Of a DNA stretch of 64,000 nucleotides, positions 11,822 through 39,709 are shown piece by piece. The DNA is from Mitsuokella multacida DSM 20544 (GTDB lineage Bacteria; Bacillota; Negativicutes; Selenomonadales; Selenomonadaceae). The DNA lies in assembly GCF_000155955.1 (NCBI RefSeq), contig NZ_GG697142.2, positions 485,325-549,324 on the forward strand. The letters are read 5' to 3'. The notes beneath the pieces are model-generated. The model was not told where the DNA came from. It saw nothing but the letters and a program-made list of their open reading frames with translations, and made no database searches. Each line of letters begins with the position of its first letter. The first letter of the stretch is position 1. A program made the translations under genes and the position numbers.

Positions 11822-12156
11822 TTACCTACCCATCACTCGCTCCATGACGTGGATAAATTCCATAACGTGCTCCGTCGGATCTTTGGCGTACAGGATTCCA
11901 TAGGGGACGGCATATTCCTTGCCCCAATCGCAAGTGAGCGTGACCAAGGCCGGATGGATTCCGTCCCAAAGGTCAACGGAAATCATTGGTCGCCCGGTGT
12001 TTTCCGCATAGTTAAACACATTGAAATCATATGGTGGGACATCATGGATATGGATTTGCGGATGATTTTCCTCAATCTCATCGCGCAAGTTGTCGATATA
12101 GGATGTATCGCCGCGCTCCACCATGAGGATGGTTTCGCCATATAAATCCGTAAGCC
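11822..12156 (-). pseudogene. LysR effector-domain remnant
   Basis: The minus-strand frame reads IRLTDLYGETILMVE through a stretch ending KEYAVPYGILYAKDP. This is the C-terminal half of a LysR effector-binding domain, close to the ending of the intact LysR at 33159 (compare WDYAIPFGILHAPQP). The DNA-binding domain is gone: at about 12157 the sequence becomes the antisense of a carboxylesterase. A deletion seems to have removed its 5' half together with that of the divergent neighbour. Confidence 0.8.
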
Positions 12157-13073
12157 TGATGGCCAGCCCGAAGGCCAAAGGCTTGTTCAAAAATATCATC
12201 GCCATGTCCGCCCCGGTCATGTACGCCAACGGCCATTCCGTTTCGCCGGAACAGGCCGAGGAACGCGGTATAGGTTTGGCCAAGGCAGCAGGGCTGAATA
12301 ATGCCACTGCCGAACAGCTTCGTGCGCTGTCCACGGAAGAGATTTTAGCCTTGGAGAATAACTATTTGCTGGATGGCATCATCACCAGAGATGGCGAGTA
12401 TGTCCCTACCAGTATCGCCGAAGCCTTCCAAGAGGGACGTGTCGACGGTGAGCGGCTGGGGATTGGCAATGTGCAAAATGAAGGCTCTTTCTTTGCCGCC
12501 TTGACGGAGAGTGCCGCCGGAAAACCGATGGACGAGGTCGCTTATCGCGACAATTTGGAAGCCTTGGAGAAACAGTATGCTCTGCCGGGATTTGCAGACA
12601 AGGTGATGCAGGAATACCCCGCTTCCGATTACGGCAGTCCGGCCGAGGCTTATGCCCAAGTCATCACGGACAGTTGGTTCGCCGCGCCGATTTATCGGAT
12701 TGCCGACTCCCTTGATAACCAAATCAAAGTCTATTACTACGAGTTCAGCGACCCGACTTGCCCCAAGTATGTGACAACGGACTTTGCGCAGGGTACGGCG
12801 CACACCTACGAACTGCCCTATCTGTTTCCCGGTTTCCACGGCTCTTCCGACCTCAGCACCGATCTCAATAAAAAGCAACAGAAGGTTGCCAAGGAAATGG
12901 TCAAGTTGTGGACGGGTATGTCCGAGGTGGACAGGCGGGGCATTTGGGAGCGTTTTGACAGCGACCGCGCCCAGTATCTGAAACTTGGTCAAGGCAAGCC
13001 GCAGATGATGGACATGAAAGACTATAGAGAACGCCATCACTTTGATTTTTGGCAAAACATCCGACTGTATTGA
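12157..13073 (+). pseudogene. Type-B carboxylesterase lacking its N-terminus
   Basis: The frame begins abruptly with MASPKAKGLFKN, which in type-B carboxylesterases follows just after the GESAGG nucleophile elbow. About 300 residues of normal C-terminal half follow, including the region before the catalytic histidine (QGTAHTYELPYLFP). The N-terminal half with the catalytic serine is absent, so no activity is possible. No ribosome site is seen at the apparent start. It is joined head to head with the LysR remnant, and the flavodoxin at 13090 follows after 16 bases. Confidence 0.85.
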
Positions 13074-31343: not shown

Positions 31344-31769
31344 TCATTTCTCGTCCGTACCGTCGCCGTCATCGCTGGGCAGCAGATCGCTCTTGTAGGG
31401 AATTTTGCCGGACAGGACGTCGCGGTAGAAGCCCTGCTTCCAGGCGATGTAGTCGATGGCTTCCTGGATGGCGGCAATCTTCTCGTGCAGGGCCTCGTCC
31501 TTGCGGGCGAGCATCTGCTGGCGCGTGGGGATGGAGGGCACGCCCTCGAGGCAGAGCGCAAGGTATTTTTTCATCTCGGCAATCGTGAAGTCGCAGTTCT
31601 TGAGACAGTTGAGGCTCTTGACCCAGCCGAGGTCGTGCTCGTCAAAGATGCGATGGTTGTTCTTGTCGCGCTTGACATGGGGGATGAGTCCTTGGTTGCA
31701 GTAGAACTTCAGCGTCTCGTATTTCATATTGGCGGCTTCGCAGACTTGCTTCATAGTATATATCGGCAT
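31344..31769 (-). CDS. MerR-family regulator
   Basis: This is a 141-residue MerR regulator: MPIYTMKQVCEAANMKYETL (helix-turn-helix), LKFYCNQGLIPHVKRDKNNH (wing), RIFDEHDLGWVKSLNCLKNC, and a C-terminal coiled coil. It is of the one-component type that responds to small molecules such as aldehydes (compare AdhR/NmlR), but the usual conserved cysteine cannot be assigned with confidence. The ATG at 31769 is chosen by homology of the start. It is divergent from the Fe-ADH at 31941; the shared gap has a 19-bp-spacer promoter with a dyad, the hallmark of MerR control. A 3' remnant of a copy lies at 26916. Confidence 0.9.
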   Translation of the reverse strand: MPIYTMKQVCEAANMKYETLKFYCNQGLIPHVKRDKNNHRIFDEHDLGWVKSLNCLKNCDFTIAEMKKYLALCLEGVPSIPTRQQMLARKDEALHEKIAAIQEAIDYIAWKQGFYRDVLSGKIPYKSDLLPSDDGDGTDEK

Positions 31770-33158: not shown

Positions 33159-34058
33159 TTGTACAATCCACAGTTGATAACCTTCATGAAAGCGGCGGAG
33201 GAAGGAAGCTTCAGCAAGGCGGCGGAAGCGCTCTTCATCTCGGCGCCGGCCGTCATCAAGCAGATCAACCTGCTGGAGGCACGGCTCAACCTGCGCCTCT
33301 TTGAGCGCACGCATCGCGGCCTGCAGCTGACGAAGGCAGGCGAGTCGCTCTACAGGGATGCGGCGTATCTCGTCCAGTACAGCAAGGACGCCGTAGAGCG
33401 GGCGCGCAAGGCCATGCAGGAGACACAGCAGCTCATCCGCATTGGCATCTCGGTCATGACGCCGACGAATTTCCTGCTGAATCTCTGGCCGAAACTGCAG
33501 GAGGTCAGTCCCGACCTGCAGTTCCAGCTCGTGTCGTTCGAGAACACGCCGGAGAACGCGCGCGAGATCCTCACGCATCTCGGCGCGAACATCGATGTGG
33601 TCGCAGGCGTATTTGACGAGAGTATGTTTCATCTGCAGGGAAAATGTGAGGGCATGGAGCTCCGCCGTGAGCCCTTCTGCATGGCGGTACCACTCAGCCA
33701 TCCGCTGGTGGCCAAAGAGCGGTTGACGCTTTCGGAACTCGAAGATGAAACAATCAATATCATTCAGCCGGGCTGGTCCAAGGTGATGGATGATTTACGT
33801 AAGGATCTTGTCATGAATCATCCAGATATTCATCTGAAGGAATTCCCGTTTTACAATATTGATATGTTCAATCGTTGCGTTAATGAGGGGAGCCTGCTCA
33901 TCGGCGTGCCGGAGTGGAAGGACATCCACCCGCTGATGCGCATGATTCCTGTGGAATGGGACTATGCAATCCCCTTCGGTATCCTGCACGCGCCGCAGCC
34001 CTCGGCGGCTGTGAGCCGGTTCCTTTATGCTGTCCGCAAGGTTTTGTCCAAGGGATGA
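33159..34058 (+). CDS. LysR-family regulator
   Basis: This is a 299-residue LysR protein with a TTG start preceded by GAGGGGAG. Helix-turn-helix: FSKAAEALFISAPAVIKQIN. The effector domain is complete. The LysR remnant at 11822 is its close relative. Its gene lies directly upstream of the first of four similar promoters (34081, 35630, 36742, 36951), each with a dyad near -64 as expected for LysR binding, so it probably controls the CMD, hydrolase and FMN reductase genes that follow. Confidence 0.9.
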   Translation: MYNPQLITFMKAAEEGSFSKAAEALFISAPAVIKQINLLEARLNLRLFERTHRGLQLTKAGESLYRDAAYLVQYSKDAVERARKAMQETQQLIRIGISVMTPTNFLLNLWPKLQEVSPDLQFQLVSFENTPENAREILTHLGANIDVVAGVFDESMFHLQGKCEGMELRREPFCMAVPLSHPLVAKERLTLSELEDETINIIQPGWSKVMDDLRKDLVMNHPDIHLKEFPFYNIDMFNRCVNEGSLLIGVPEWKDIHPLMRMIPVEWDYAIPFGILHAPQPSAAVSRFLYAVRKVLSKG

Positions 34059-34080
34059 GCCCATTCTGTCCGAAAACTAT

Positions 34081-34137
34081 AAGTTAATACTGCCTAACGA
34101 AACGAGACTTCTGCTGAAGCCTCGTTTTCTTTATGAT
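34081..34137 (+). promoter_or_regulatory. Repeated promoter module P1 (CMD gene)
   Basis: An AACT-ATA-AGTT dyad (34076-34086) is followed by TAATACT, TAACGAAACGAGAC, a -35 TTCTGC, 17 bases and TATGAT (34132-34137). The -35 lies inside an inverted repeat (GAG-CTTC to GAAG-CTC). Three related modules follow downstream. Confidence 0.65.
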
Positions 34138-34222
34138 AAAAGCAAGAGATGAGCAAGATATATCGGCTGAAGATGGTCGGGGACAATAGGGAAGGTATTG
34201 GTCATGAGAAAGGATGACAGGC

Positions 34223-35155
34223 ATGAAAAAGAAATGGTGGCATATGATGCTTTTGGGGTTGGCTTCTGCAAGCTTTCTGACGCTCTTGCAGGTTCCGGCA
34301 GAAGCATCGCCGGATAAAGCTTCGACTGGCCTGACAGCTGAGTCGAAACCTGCAGTAGCCGCGGGAGAATCGACGCTTTCTGGCTATAATCGGGGCAGGA
34401 TAGCTCAAGAGAATTACGAGAAGCTTCATGGCAAGGAGGCTTTCCCTTTGGAAAAGACAGATCCTGAGTATGCAGACATGATGAAGAAGTACATCTACGG
34501 GGACATCGCCGAGCAGATGACAATCACGCCGGTCGAGCAGTCGCTCGTCGTGCTCAGCGTGCTGGCGACGAACCAGAACGCGGACCTGCTGCCTCGTGCC
34601 GTCGAGGAGGCGCTGGCGGCCGGCGCAACGCCCTTGCAGATTCGCGAGGCCATCTACCACATCACGCCGTACGTCGGCTTTGCCAAGACGGAGCCTGCCG
34701 TGCGCCAGATGAATGAGGTCTTCCGCCGTCACGGCGTGAAACTGCCGCTTAAAGCGCAGGGCACGACGACGGACGCGGACCGCTTCGAGAAGGGCCTCGC
34801 TTACCAGACGGGCAAGTATGGGGAGCGCATCACCGAGATGCGCGCGAACACGCCGGCGTACGAGAAGCACCTGCAGGATGACCTCTCGGCTTTCTGCTTC
34901 GGCGACATCTACACGCGCGGCACTTTTGGCCACAAGGAGCGCGAGATGCTGACGGTCGCGGCCATCGGCACGCTCGGCATCGAGGCGCAGTTCCGCAGCC
35001 ACGTCAACGGCACGCTCGCGGCCGGCGCGACGAAAGAGGAAGTCATCGGCATCATCACGGCGATGAACCCCTACGTCGGCTTCCCGCGCACGCTCTGGAT
35101 GCTCCAGATCGCCAACGGTTGTTTCGCGGCAGCCGCGCAGGCCAAAGCCCAATAA
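34223..35155 (+). CDS. Exported two-domain carboxymuconolactone decarboxylase-like protein
   Basis: This is a 310-residue protein. A signal peptide ends near AEAS (about residue 28). Two CMD repeats follow: one around VEQSLVVLSVLATNQNADLL to YHITPYVGFAK, and one around KEREMLTVAAIGTLGIEAQF to MNPYVGFPR. No CxxC is present. It resembles the tandem CMD proteins often found near cupins. The ATG at 34223 is preceded by AAAGGATGA. It is the first gene after module P1 and is followed by a cupin pseudogene. Confidence 0.88.
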   Translation: MKKKWWHMMLLGLASASFLTLLQVPAEASPDKASTGLTAESKPAVAAGESTLSGYNRGRIAQENYEKLHGKEAFPLEKTDPEYADMMKKYIYGDIAEQMTITPVEQSLVVLSVLATNQNADLLPRAVEEALAAGATPLQIREAIYHITPYVGFAKTEPAVRQMNEVFRRHGVKLPLKAQGTTTDADRFEKGLAYQTGKYGERITEMRANTPAYEKHLQDDLSAFCFGDIYTRGTFGHKEREMLTVAAIGTLGIEAQFRSHVNGTLAAGATKEEVIGIITAMNPYVGFPRTLWMLQIANGCFAAAAQAKAQ

Positions 35156-35230
35156 GCGCCTATCCCGCACACAGTTGATGCAGGTTCACGATATTACCAA
35201 TCCGAGCTGAACAGAAAGGAAAGATTCCCC

Positions 35231-35592
35231 ATGAAACTGAAACAGAGACGTTTTCTCGCGGCCCTCACGGCCATGGTGACCGGCGGCCTCATGACCATGT
35301 CCCTCCATGCCATGCTAGTCGAAGCGGCTGCCGTCCAGGACTCCATCAAGGACGCGCCGCAGCAGGCGACGGGCATCGCGTTCATTACCAGATTTACCAG
35401 ATCTGGGGCGAGGCCCCGCACGAACTCCGTCCCGGCATGACCGTCACCATCCCTGCCGGGATCAAGCACTGGCACGGCGCAGCCCCCCGCAGCATGCTCT
35501 AGCATATCTCCATCATGGAATCCGTCCCCAAGATCACAACCGAGTGGCTGGAAGAAGTCAATCCTGCAGATTACGAAGCATTGAACCCATGA
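35231..35592 (+). pseudogene. Exported cupin pseudogene
   Basis: A good signal-peptide frame (MKLKQRRFLAALTAMVTGGL) loses its register at a 9-bp tandem repeat TTACCAGAT (35388-35405). A frame with the cupin end follows: YQIWGEAPHELRPGMTVTIP, KHWHGAAP, then TAG where the relative at 1154 has Gln before HLSI, and a normal C-terminus. The first metal motif is missing. At least three lesions show it is dead. Confidence 0.88.
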
Positions 35593-35629
35593 TGCCCCCT
35601 GTAATCATCGGTTCTCACTTGTAATCACA

Positions 35630-35685
35630 GGTTTATACAGACTAACGAAACGAGACTTCTGCCGGAGTCTCGTTTTCTTTATCAT
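35630..35685 (+). promoter_or_regulatory. Repeated promoter module P2 (hydrolase gene)
   Basis: AATCACAGGTT and TATACA are followed by TAACGAAACGAGAC, -35 TTCTGC, 17 bases and TATCAT (35680-35685). A second half-conserved AATCATCGGTT lies 20 bases upstream. The inverted repeat CGAGACT/AGTCTCG spans the -35. Confidence 0.65.
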
Positions 35686-35748
35686 GAGAATCGAGGAAAC
35701 CACTGTGTTGCCGTAAGTGAGGCAGAATACAAATAAGATATAGAAAGA

Positions 35749-36733
35749 ATGAGTATGCTTATGAGACAGATGAATGCAAGAGCAATCAACGAGACTAGCC
35801 CAGTAAAGCCCGTCAGGCCGGCCGTCAAGATGCGGCAGGTACGCAAGGCGCTGTTCACGGGCAGCACACCGCTGCGCGAGGTCATCCATGCGCCGTACTT
35901 CAAACCGTTCGGGCGGCTGCTGTTCCCGACGACGTGGCCGATACCGCGGCAGGCGACGCTGTCGGACCTGCGCGCGTTCCTGCCGTGGTATTCGGAGATA
36001 CGGACGAAGACGAGCATCGAGGTGCTGACGGCACTCTACGGGGACGCGAAGAGCGGGGAGACCATCTTCTATCCCATCTACACGGAGGCGGAGCAGGCCG
36101 AGATGCCGGCCAAGCGGGACACGGGCCTGTTCTTCTTCCGCAGCCGTGCGCCGAAACGCCACCGCACGGCGGTCTGCAGTGCAGGCGGCGGCTTTGTTTA
36201 CGTCGGCGCCATCCACGACAGCTTCCCGCACGCGCTGGCGCTCTCGCGGCGCGGCTACGATGCCTTTGCGCTGATCTACCGGCCCGGTGCCAAGACGGCC
36301 TGTGAGGACCTGGCCCGCGCGCTGGCTTTCCTCTTCGCGCACGAGCAGGAGCTCGGCATCTCGATGGAAGGGTACTCGCTCTGGGGCGGCTCGGCCGGCG
36401 CGCGCATGTCGGCCTGGCTCAGCGACTACGGCACGGGCGCCTTTGGCGAGCGAGCGCGCCTTGCCGCGCCCGGCGGCCGTCGTGCTGCAGTACACGGGCC
36501 TCAGTGAGGTCACGGGGCGCGAGGTCCCGACGTACAGTTGCGTCGGCGACGAGGACCCGATTGCCGACTGCCACACCGTGCAGAGCCGCATCGATGCCCT
36601 GCGTGCGGGCGGCGTTCCCGCAGAGCTCGAGATTTTCCCAGGACTCGCGCACGGTTTCGGACTCGGCAATGGCACAGTCGCCGAGGGCTGGCTGGACCGT
36701 GCCGTCGCCTTCTGGGAGGCACAGCTCGGGTGA
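35749..36733 (+). pseudogene. Alpha/beta hydrolase with frameshift
   Basis: Frame 1 (35749-36507) encodes an esterase/acetyl-hydrolase-like protein: AGGGFVYVGAIHDSFP (oxyanion region), the nucleophile elbow WGGSAGARM, and the following helix. Near 36455-36470 the frame is lost, and frame 2 continues with PRPAAVVLQYTG, VGDEDPIA (acid) and GLAHGFGLG (histidine) to 36733. A single base change would rejoin the halves. The catalytic Ser and His are in different frames, so no active enzyme is made as read. Confidence 0.82.
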
Positions 36734-36741
36734 TAACAGTT

Positions 36742-36797
36742 GGTTCAAACTGCCTAACTGATGGAGCCTTCTGCGAGGCCGCGTGGGTGGCTATAAT
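36742..36797 (+). promoter_or_regulatory. Repeated promoter module P4 (degenerate)
   Basis: A TTGGTTCAAACTGCCTAAC box, -35 TTCTGC, 17 bases and TATAAT (36792-36797). Spacing is the same as in the other modules, and the inverted repeat is kept as GCCT/AGGC although the bases differ. It precedes a short remnant, so its gene is lost. Confidence 0.55.
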
Positions 36798-36833
36798 ACA
36801 GTCATCGAGAGAAATGATGCGAAAGCATAGATA

Positions 36834-36893
36834 ACGACGGCGGTGTCGGTTGTCACTATGCCGCTCGTGGCCTGGATCGTTGGCATCGGCTGA
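36834..36893 (+). pseudogene. Possible transporter C-terminal remnant
   Basis: A 19-residue hydrophobic tail TTAVSVVTMPLVAWIVGIG and stop resembles the last helix of an auxin-efflux-type carrier. Too short to be sure. The rest of the 36734-37101 gap holds only modules P4 and P3. Confidence 0.3.
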
Positions 36894-36950
36894 TGCCACT
36901 TCCTCATAAATTCCCAGTATCTACCTGTAGTAACCAGTAGTTTCTGCCGA

Positions 36951-37014
36951 TAACCGCTGGTTCATACTCATTAACGAAACGAGACTTCTGCCGGAGTCTC
37001 GTTTTTCCTATAAT
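36951..37014 (+). promoter_or_regulatory. Repeated promoter module P3 (FMN reductase operon)
   Basis: AACC-GCT-GGTT (36952-36962), TAACGAAACGAGAC, -35 TTCTGC (36986-36991), 17 bases, TATAAT (37009-37014). The dyad centre lies about 64 bases before the expected transcription start. The inverted repeat CGAGACT/AGTCTCG spans the -35. Confidence 0.65.
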
Positions 37015-37101
37015 GAAGACAGTTGAGGGATGGCGGGGCGGCCGATCCTCTGCAGACGATAAGCAAAGAATCGACAAGATTTCGATAGGAGATGTTTGGA
37101 T

Positions 37102-37548
37102 ATGAAAATCTTATTTATCAATGGCAGCCCGAACCGCGAGGGCAATACGGCAAATCTGGCAAAGGCACTGCTCACCGGCCACGAATACGAGACGCTGATG
37201 CTGACGGACTACCGCATCAACGTCTACGGGCAGGAGCTGCCGAGTGACCAGCTCGAGGAAGTCCTAGCGAAGATCCGCGAGGCAGACGTGCTCGTCATCG
37301 GCTCACCGGTCTACTGGCACAACATCTGCGGCTCGGTGCGCACGCTGCTCGACCGCTTCTACGGCCCCGTTGCCGAGGGCAGCCTGCACGGCAAGTGCTT
37401 CTTCCTGTTCCAGGGCGCCGCTCCGGAAAAGTGGATGCTCGAAGCCGGTGACTACACGATGAAGCGCTTCGCCTCGATGTACGGCTATGCATATGGAGGC
37501 ATGGCCACGAACCGCCGCGAAGCCGAGCAACTGGCACAGAAGCTTTGA
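37102..37548 (+). CDS. NAD(P)H-dependent FMN reductase/flavodoxin-fold protein
   Basis: This is a 148-residue flavodoxin-fold oxidoreductase. FMN phosphate loop INGSPNREGNTANLAKAL (about 5-22), flavin loop IGSPVYWHNICGSV. The cysteine in NICG follows the family; no 4Fe-4S motif is present. It is cytoplasmic. ATAGGAG lies upstream of ATG 37102. It is the first gene after module P3; the exported hydrolase at 37578, the aldo/keto reductases and DUF362 follow in the same direction. Confidence 0.88.
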   Translation: MKILFINGSPNREGNTANLAKALLTGHEYETLMLTDYRINVYGQELPSDQLEEVLAKIREADVLVIGSPVYWHNICGSVRTLLDRFYGPVAEGSLHGKCFFLFQGAAPEKWMLEAGDYTMKRFASMYGYAYGGMATNRREAEQLAQKL

Positions 37549-37577
37549 GGCGTGGCTGGAGAGAAAGGAGTCTTTTG

Positions 37578-38678
37578 ATGAAACCGATGAACTATTGGAA
37601 GAAAGCAGCGGTAGCCCTGATGCTCGCGGGTTTTGGCAGCTTCGGCTTCTCGTATCAGCCGGCCTCTGCCATGCAGCATCCGGTGACGATTGAGGACCAG
37701 GGCAGTTTCATGGCTGGCGGCAAGACGGTGACGGCACCGGGCACGTATGACGGCACGAAGCCGACGGACTTCGCCGGCGAGACGCTGCATGGCGATCACG
37801 CTTACGTGTTCTACCAGAAGCCGGTCAAGGCCAAGAAGACGAGCATGGTCTTCCTGCACGGCTACGGCCAGTCGGGCAAGACCTGGGAGACGACGCCGGA
37901 CGGGCGCGATGGCTTCCAGAATATTTTCCTTGAGAAGGGGTACAAGACGTACGTCGTGGATGAACCGGGCCGCGGCAAGGCCGGCCGCCGCACGACCCCG
38001 GGCACGGTCTCGGCACAGCCGGATGACCAGCTCTGGTTCAACACGTTCCGCATCGGCGAGTGGCCGGATACGTACGACAATGTCGCAGTGCCGCGCACCA
38101 AGGAAGCCGAGGAGCAGTTCTTCCATGCGATGACGCCGGATACGGCGCCGTTTGACCAGCAGGTCGTCGCCGATGCGATGACGGCTGTCATGGATAAGGC
38201 CGGTGACGGCGTGCTCGTCACGCATTCGGCTGGCGGCGCCCCTGGCTGGCTGACGGGCATCCAGTCGGAGCACGTCAAGGGCATCATTTCGCTGGAGCCG
38301 GGTGCGTTCCCGTTCCCGAAGGGACAGGCGCCGGCCGTCGAGAAGACGACGAGCCCATTCCCGGCCACGCCGATGGAAGTCTCGATGGAAGACTTCCTGA
38401 AGCTGACGAAGATCCCGACGGTCATCTACTTTGGCGACAACATCCCGAAGGGAGATACGCCGGTCGCGAACTGGGGCCAGGACAACTGGCGCGTGCGCTG
38501 GAATCTCGCCAAGAAGTGGGAGACTGTCATGCGCTCCTACGGCGCGGATGTCAGCGTCGTCTCGCTGCCGGACATCGGCATCAAGGGCAGCACGCACTTC
38601 ATGATGGCAGACCTCAACAATCGCGAGGTCGCCGATGCAATGGTCAAGTGGATGCACGAACGCAAGCTTGACCGCTGA
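37578..38678 (+). CDS. Exported alpha/beta hydrolase
   Basis: This is a 366-residue protein. A signal peptide ends near PASA (about residue 31). The hydrolase fold is clear: FLHGYGQSGKTWETT (oxyanion loop), the nucleophile elbow THSAGGAPG, and the C-terminal histidine in KGSTHFMMADLNN. Relatives are lipase/esterase-like and of unknown substrate. AAAGGAG lies 9 bases before the ATG. It is the second gene after module P3, followed by an aldo/keto reductase after 41 bases. Confidence 0.88.
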   Translation: MKPMNYWKKAAVALMLAGFGSFGFSYQPASAMQHPVTIEDQGSFMAGGKTVTAPGTYDGTKPTDFAGETLHGDHAYVFYQKPVKAKKTSMVFLHGYGQSGKTWETTPDGRDGFQNIFLEKGYKTYVVDEPGRGKAGRRTTPGTVSAQPDDQLWFNTFRIGEWPDTYDNVAVPRTKEAEEQFFHAMTPDTAPFDQQVVADAMTAVMDKAGDGVLVTHSAGGAPGWLTGIQSEHVKGIISLEPGAFPFPKGQAPAVEKTTSPFPATPMEVSMEDFLKLTKIPTVIYFGDNIPKGDTPVANWGQDNWRVRWNLAKKWETVMRSYGADVSVVSLPDIGIKGSTHFMMADLNNREVADAMVKWMHERKLDR

Positions 38679-38719
38679 GACAATGGTCTTGAAAGAAAGA
38701 GAACAGGAGATTGATATAG

Positions 38720-39709
38720 ATGGAAAAGAGACGTTTGGGACGAAGCAATGTATTCGTCAATCCGGTCGGCCTCGGCTGCATGGGCTTCAGTCATGCGATG
38801 GGCGAGCCGGTCGCGAAGGAGCAGGCTGTCCGCACGCTGCGCGAGGCAGCAGAGGCCGGCTATGATTTCTTCGATACGGCGGAGTGCTATACGGGCGTAT
38901 TGCCGGACGGCTCGACCTCGTACAATGAGGAGCTCGTGGGCAAGGCGCTCCAGGGTATTCGCGACAAAGTCGTCATTGCGACGAAGATGGGCGTTTACCA
39001 CAATGAAGACCGCACGCTCTCGCTCGACAGCAGTCCGACGGCCATCCGCAAGAGCATCGAGGGCAGCCTACGCCGCCTGGGCACGGACTACGTCGACCTC
39101 TACTACCAGCACCGCATCGACCCGAAGGTGGAGCCGGAGGTCGTGGCCGCCACGATGAAAGAGCTCATCAAGGAAGGGAAGATCCGCGCCTGGGGCATCT
39201 CGGAGACGACTGAGGAATACCTGCGCCGTGCGAACGCTGTCTGCCCGGTCACAGCCATCGAGAACCGCTATTCGATGATGGCGCGCTGGCATGAGTCGCT
39301 GTTCCCCGTCTGCGAGGAGCTCGGCATAACGTTCGTCGCGTTCTCGCCGATGGCCAACGGCTTCCTGACGGGCAAGTACTCGCCGAAGACGAAGTTCGAG
39401 GGCAGTCAGGACTACCGCAAGCAGATGCCGCAGTATTCCGAGGAAGGCTACGAGAAGGGCAAGAAGCTCCTCGACTTCCTGACGGGGCTCGCAGAAGAGA
39501 AGAAAGCGACGCTCGGCCAGCTCTCGCTCGCCTGGATGCTCGCCAAGAAGCCGTACATCATCCCCATCCCGGGCTCGCGCAAGCTCAGCCGCCTGAAGGA
39601 GAACCTCGCGGCAGCCGACGTCGAGCTGACGGCGGATGAAGTGGCGCGCATCGACACGGAACTCGATGGAATGGATTTTGAAGTATTTGGCGGCTATGCA
39701 GCAAGATGA
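38720..39709 (+). CDS. Aldo/keto reductase
   Basis: This is a 329-residue cytoplasmic aldo/keto reductase. Catalytic residues: Asp and Tyr in FFDTAECYTG, Lys in IATKMG, His in LYYQHRID. Cofactor end: PIPGSRKLSRLKEN. It resembles the YakC/pyridoxal-reductase-type group. AGGAGATTG lies upstream of the ATG. It is in the operon begun at 37102, between an exported hydrolase and the DUF362 protein. Confidence 0.93.
   Translation: MEKRRLGRSNVFVNPVGLGCMGFSHAMGEPVAKEQAVRTLREAAEAGYDFFDTAECYTGVLPDGSTSYNEELVGKALQGIRDKVVIATKMGVYHNEDRTLSLDSSPTAIRKSIEGSLRRLGTDYVDLYYQHRIDPKVEPEVVAATMKELIKEGKIRAWGISETTEEYLRRANAVCPVTAIENRYSMMARWHESLFPVCEELGITFVAFSPMANGFLTGKYSPKTKFEGSQDYRKQMPQYSEEGYEKGKKLLDFLTGLAEEKKATLGQLSLAWMLAKKPYIIPIPGSRKLSRLKENLAAADVELTADEVARIDTELDGMDFEVFGGYAAR

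Follow-up and report, generated by a model that had tools for sequence, protein, structure and literature searches.

Does a sequence layout that recurs four times beside a LysR-type gene of Mitsuokella multacida DSM 20544 mark the promoters of one LysR regulon, or does it serve another purpose, such as ending the transcripts of the genes that precede it? The original prediction, made on a 64,000-nucleotide stretch of this genome (hereafter the window), was of four copies of one promoter layout, and all four are indeed present (P1 to P4; Table 1). They align without gaps over ~70 bases, in the same register and all in one orientation, and each runs through a dyad (AAC-N5-GTT, with an AAT variant in P2), an ATACT-like block, TAAC, a -35 of TTCTGC, exactly 17 bases, and TATNAT, with GAAACGAGAC between TAAC and the -35 in P1, P2, and P4 only (model position 1 is the first base of each module in Table 1). 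Within the window, these are the sole matches to TTCTGC-N17-TATNAT at 0 mismatches, and the 19-mer AACGAAACGAGACTTCTGC occurs three times (P1, P2, and P4) against 0.01 expected by shuffling. The genome-wide consensus search that had been proposed was run on the whole 2.58-Mb genome, where TAACN4GGTTN3ACTN3TAACN10TTCTGC with ≤3 mismatches returned four matches, i.e., P1 to P4 in the window cluster, and a sequence-only profile likewise found full copies at these places alone. The near-identity of P1, P2, and P4 likely reflects recent local duplication.

Our best explanation, to which we assign a probability of roughly 0.84, is that all copies are promoters of the sigma-70 type that the LysR protein encoded at 33159 activates, with a terminator nested in the core promoter of copies that follow lysR and of some others. 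A LysR dimer (half of the tetramer) would recognize the dyad AAC...GTT/GTA centered at -64/-65, a second dimer would contact the conserved ACTnnnTAAC/GATGAAC block (approximately -55 to -46) beside a weak -35 (TTCTnn), and the bound protein would recruit RNA polymerase to a TATAAT-like -10 exactly 17 bases downstream of the -35. The nested terminator would take the conserved AACGAGACTTC that leads into the -35 as its 5' arm, place its loop in the -35, use the 17-base spacer as its 3' arm, and let its U-tract run into the -10, and it would serve the upstream transcript in copies directly after lysR and in some others.

Table 1 Features of the LysR module and its gene cluster (window coordinates; roles are predicted)
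Feature	Positions	Strand	Evidence or role
lysR, proposed regulator of the module	33159..34058	+	Pfam HTH_1 and LysR_substrate; orthologues travel with the module
P1 module	34068..34143	+	Profile R1 63.1 bits, E 1.5e-17; target CMD gene
P1 parts	dyad AAC-N5-GTT 34075-34085; TAAC 34095-34098; -35 TTCTGC 34109-34114; -10 TATGAT 34132-34137	+	
P1 nested terminator hairpin and T-rich tract	34099..34128	+	-13.7 kcal/mol, z -4.6; covariation in relatives
CMD-domain protein gene	34214..35155	+	Pfam CMD PF02627, 1.4e-27; P1 target
P2 module	35616..35691	+	R1 57.3 bits, E 1e-15; target alpha/beta-hydrolase gene
P2 parts	-35 TTCTGC 35657-35662; -10 TATCAT 35680-35685	+	
P2 nested terminator hairpin	35647..35676	+	-17.6 kcal/mol, z -5.3; terminator scan match
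Alpha/beta hydrolase gene (BD-FAE/DLH type)	35749..36733	+	Pfam; one gene in relatives; P2 target
P3 module, without terminator	36728..36803	+	R1 29.7 bits, E 4e-7
P3 parts	dyad AACAGTTGGTT 36735-36745; TAAC; -35 TTCTGC 36769-36774; -10 TATAAT 36792-36797	+	
AEC-type permease remnant, last 19 codons and stop	36834..36893	+	Similarity to L222/L058; once served by P3
P4 module	36945..37020	+	R1 57.0 bits, E 1.3e-15; target FMN reductase gene and genes after it
P4 parts	dyad AACCGCTGGTT 36952-36962; TAAC 36972-36975; -35 36986-36991; -10 TATAAT 37009-37014	+	
P4 nested terminator hairpin	36976..37005	+	-17.6 kcal/mol, z -5.0
FMN reductase, alpha/beta hydrolase, and aldo/keto reductase genes	37102..39709	+	Pfam FMN_red, Abhydrolase_6, Aldo_ket_red; P4 targets

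Anatomy was counted in 120 non-redundant module copies. Of the 117 copies with a measurable spacer, 109 have exactly 17 bases between the TTCTnn -35 and the -10, and AAC occupies -48 to -46 in 111 of the 120, followed by ACTTC into the -35, such that a conserved site overlaps or abuts the -35. LysR-type transcriptional regulators (LTTRs) typically have a recognition site (RBS) of the form T-N11-A near -65 and an activation site (ABS) at -35 (PMC8407307). With the -10 hexamer assigned to -12 to -7, the consensus of relatives, TATAACC-TTT-AGGTATA (T-N11-A), has its dyad centered at -65; the window dyad reads AACC-N3-GGTT or T-N12-A and is centered at -64, its left half-site being one base nearer than in relatives; the ~64 bases earlier proposed between the P3 dyad and its start site agree with this predicted register. 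Strict T-N11-A is found in 53/120 copies, and the window copies read AAC-N5-GTT or T-N12-A. Because TTCT is far from the -35 consensus, we infer its role from spacing and conservation.

The inverted repeat across the -35 had been predicted for all copies, and this part of the prediction is only partly borne out. The hairpins of P1, P2, and P4 each fold better than all 200 shuffles (z -4.6 to -5.3) and are directly followed by a T-tract, as in intrinsic terminators, with that of P1 starting 40 bases after the lysR stop codon, whereas the GCCT/AGGC pairing of P3 is no hairpin above chance (z -0.87; 39/200 shuffles as good). The claim that compensating changes keep the repeat does stand, as the stem covaries across relatives with a score of 0.209 versus 0.115 in shuffles and ≤0.089 for slid partners (a one-base slide destroys the signal), and stem cells altered on both sides number 37 versus 11. 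The most fitting reading of the repeat is an intrinsic terminator, in most cases that of lysR, nested in the core promoter rather than forming part of an operator.

The strongest competitor, which we nevertheless consider improbable, accepts the promoters and takes the inverted repeat for a DNA-level operator, bound by a second regulator or serving as a LysR half-site pair. It would account for the left arm GAGACTTC being retained in several hairpin-less copies and for stem pair 40-53, an exception in that many copies have A-C there, a poor fit to a hairpin formed by lysR-strand RNA. However, the variable outer stem stays paired even though one of its pairs (35-58) takes six different forms, with both sides changed in 26/48 sequences, a constraint for which a protein site has no use; G-U pairs outnumber A-C mismatches 76:28 on the lysR-sense strand, a T-tract follows, and the right arm is gone in about a third of copies. 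Further, the hairpin's absence goes in part with a separate terminator after lysR. Among copies directly downstream of lysR, 54/62 have the hairpin and 0/54 of these have a strong separate terminator, whereas 4/8 of the hairpin-less ones (L080, L101, L141, and L126) have a strong independent terminator between lysR and the module (Fisher 1.3e-4), a test that is suggestive but not overwhelming because the four loci represent about two lineages; some copies downstream of lysR (L059, L061, and L119) have neither. Such replacement lends indirect support to termination by the module hairpin, the efficiency of which we likewise infer, and the simplest reading would be that the element stops the upstream transcript, usually lysR, within the promoter that follows.

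Separately, at locus L064, a LysR gene of lower similarity (40% identity) has at its end (2383-2438) a long palindrome, almost perfect (GGGAGTCGGTTATACTTATGC..GCATAAGTATAACCGACTCCC), that joins an GGTTATAC-like half-site to a terminator shape and is perhaps another version of the terminator-promoter fusion.

Could the copies be terminators and nothing else, i.e., ends of preceding genes duplicated within the cluster, whose promoter look arises by coincidence where a T-tract runs into TATAAT-like sequence? The strong hairpins and T-runs of P1, P2, and P4 would fit, as would the position of most copies directly after a co-directional gene, but we regard this as quite unlikely. Approximately 39 of the 120 copies, P3 among them, lack a hairpin and keep the dyad, AAC, TTC, and -10, with the 17-base spacer in 36/37, and because these make up about a third, the copies are not transcript ends alone, which had been named as an outcome that would speak against the regulon. 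The conserved block also begins ~25 bases before the hairpin, and copies with a divergent upstream neighbor, and hence no upstream gene to end (that on the minus strand of L123 and both in L218), have no terminator and keep the upstream block. Losing the hairpin leaves information content nearly unchanged in the dyad region (0.97 bits without versus 1.03 with hairpin) and in the -35 region (1.20 versus 1.18), while the spacer drops from 1.20 to 0.15 bits per position. Since hairpin-less copies keep the dyad and -35 and lose the spacer constraint, promoter and hairpin appear to be two separable, overlaid functions. A riboswitch or leader reading of the module was also considered and is disfavored; Rfam models over 33900-37300 gave no family above threshold.

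The proposed regulator is an LTTR, with an N-terminal LysR helix-turn-helix (PF00126, 2.2e-21) and a LysR substrate-binding domain (PF03466, 1e-9), both above the gathering score, and its structural relatives found by sequence are CbnR, CatM, BenM, and OxyR. As predicted, the gene lies immediately upstream of P1. A scan with its protein over one genome per species yielded 80 orthologous loci, 53-58% identical to it and spread over Lachnospiraceae, Oscillospiraceae, and other Bacillota, and at most of these, the module stands directly 3' of the lysR stop codon (including AGTTATAACCTTTAGGTATAAACTGATGAACRAANCGAGACTTCTNNNGARGTCTCGNTTTTTTTATAAT), in dozens of genera overall. Neighborhoods in relatives, where genes were taken from simple ORF calls and similarity to window proteins, keep the hydrolase, YqhD-like Fe-ADH, flavodoxin, aldo/keto reductase (AKR), and FMN reductase. 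Within the genus, both of the remaining species lack a lysR orthologue.

Module and LysR also go together in two further counts. The 10-mer CGAGACTTCT, taken solely from the window and thus independent of any trained profile, occurs 44 times in the 23,929 bases that immediately follow the lysR orthologues on their 3' side (44/80 loci) and nine times in 1.69 Mb elsewhere. In an even sample of the phylum (398 genomes), this LysR, called at ≥48% identity, is present in eight genomes, seven of which have the full module, compared with 0 of the 390 genomes without it (Fisher 2.7e-14); the eighth holder (G035) has a weak module match only. These two checks are less circular than counts with profile R1, as some of the copies it counts had also been used to train it. 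Genomes that hold the LysR mostly have 1-6 module copies per 3-6 Mb, although two Faecalibacterium genomes have 0 at the threshold used, and a family search around G415 found no additional holder. Isolates with the module include Blautia luti and Sellimonas caecigallum. Copies unlinked to lysR, e.g., one in G540 at a distance of 300 kb, precede hydrolase, Fe-ADH, flavodoxin, FMN reductase, AKR, and DUF362 genes, so the copies are found before recurrent gene classes and not mostly at unrelated genes. In G317, G417, G454, G559, and several family genomes, matches were confined to the hairpin part (model positions ~26-68, partly on both strands); having no dyad, they were excluded from the module counts. 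Together, the module's position after lysR in dozens of genera, this co-occurrence, the exact register with sigma-70-type elements, and the unlinked copies at the same gene classes provide strong comparative support for the predicted LysR regulon with the 33159 protein as its regulator.

That the promoters answer to another LysR of the genome and stand next to 33159 fortuitously is, in our view, slightly less probable again than the terminator-only reading. The genome does contain ~24 LysR-like matches, yet it is the 33159 orthologue that co-occurs with the module (7/8 versus 0/390), more distant LysRs (29-40% identity; L063-L073) have no module nearby, and in module-associated orthologues, the DNA-binding domain is better conserved than the effector domain (mean identity 67% versus 51%). 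Least probable of all, to the point of being nearly negligible, is the reading of the copies as a small repeat, mobile or REP-like, that has dispersed within the cluster, which would suit the 19 bases identical in P1, P2, and P4, but not four copies only in 2.58 Mb, all in one orientation, or orthologous places conserved across families under functional-type constraint.

A second LysR gene lies ~21 kb away in the window (11828-12193, minus strand) and shares 34% identity with the 33159 protein in its effector half; it is possibly a paralogue of the same subfamily.

The genes served are largely those originally named, i.e., the CMD protein, a lost gene, and the FMN reductase operon, with one correction for the hydrolase after P2, which is frameshifted at ~36440-36500 in this assembly (frames 35749-36507 and 36287-36733) but unbroken, as a single gene, in relatives including L074 and L090. 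The break may reflect a true pseudogene or an assembly error. The lost gene after P3 was rightly suspected, as a C-terminal remnant of an AEC-type permease survives there (36834-36890; 19 residues), 79% identical to the C-terminus of a PF03547 protein (P0001) beside lysR in L222. This permease is upstream of lysR in L222/L058, and in L222 it is intact and immediately precedes lysR, which indicates that gene order has changed. As a P3 transcript would meet the P4 terminator, P3 is probably a relic promoter. Two further features of the cluster were assigned by eye. Between the CMD gene and P2 (35232-35592), frame changes and an in-frame stop (~35500) interrupt what is left of a gene for a secreted cupin-type protein, and at ~31344-31740 (minus strand) is a MerR-like regulator gene (KYETLKFYCNQGLI...), a second regulator in the cluster, located between the flavodoxin/Fe-ADH genes and the Fe-ADH beside lysR.

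The products encoded (Fe-ADH, AKRs, flavodoxins, FMN reductase, CMD protein, and alpha/beta hydrolases) point to a response to electrophiles such as reactive carbonyls or quinones, and we read this as a conserved LysR regulon, probably for redox or electrophile detoxification, with the nature of the inducer deduced from gene content only. Plausible roles thus lie in handling such compounds, and the module offers a precise, genome-searchable promoter signature for a LysR regulon found widely among Bacillota, including many gut members. More speculatively, the nesting might itself be a regulatory device, a feedback loop between regulator and target kept across Bacillota, which we consider rather unlikely. 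If true, polymerase transcribing lysR would cross the LysR sites and halt within the core promoter of the target, transcription of lysR would compete with initiation at the target, and promoter-bound LysR or polymerase would affect how the lysR transcript ends. Nature also provides promoters that have a terminator between -35 and -10 alongside others that lack one, a series in which both the cost of the fusion and its regulatory effect are directly measurable. In the open-licence literature, also that on yqhD/dkgA with LysR in Firmicutes and on terminator-promoter overlap, we found no published description of this regulon, and it is apparently undescribed.

One of the closest known systems is the aldehyde response of E. 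coli, in which YqhC, an AraC-type regulator, governs yqhD and dkgA. The cluster shares with it a YqhD-like Fe-ADH and a DkgA-like AKR, for which the nearest NCBIfam models are PRK15138 (YqhD) and DkgA, respectively, both matches being below curated cut-offs; it differs in having a LysR-type regulator and additional flavodoxin, FMN reductase, CMD, and hydrolase genes. Intrinsic terminators that overlap a downstream promoter are a general phenomenon, and here too, one stretch of DNA would end one transcript and start the next. What sets the module apart is the exactness of the fusion, with the loop in the -35, the 3' arm in the spacer, and the U-tract running into the -10, and its retention with covariation across many genera. 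Finally, compared with LTTR promoters (PMC8407307), the module has the expected dyad at -64/-65, a second block just upstream of the -35, an adjacent regulator gene, and a weak -35 with a good -10, whereas it departs from them in that the target is downstream of lysR and co-directional rather than divergent, the site is unusually well conserved across families, and an intrinsic terminator appears to be nested in the -35/-10 region.
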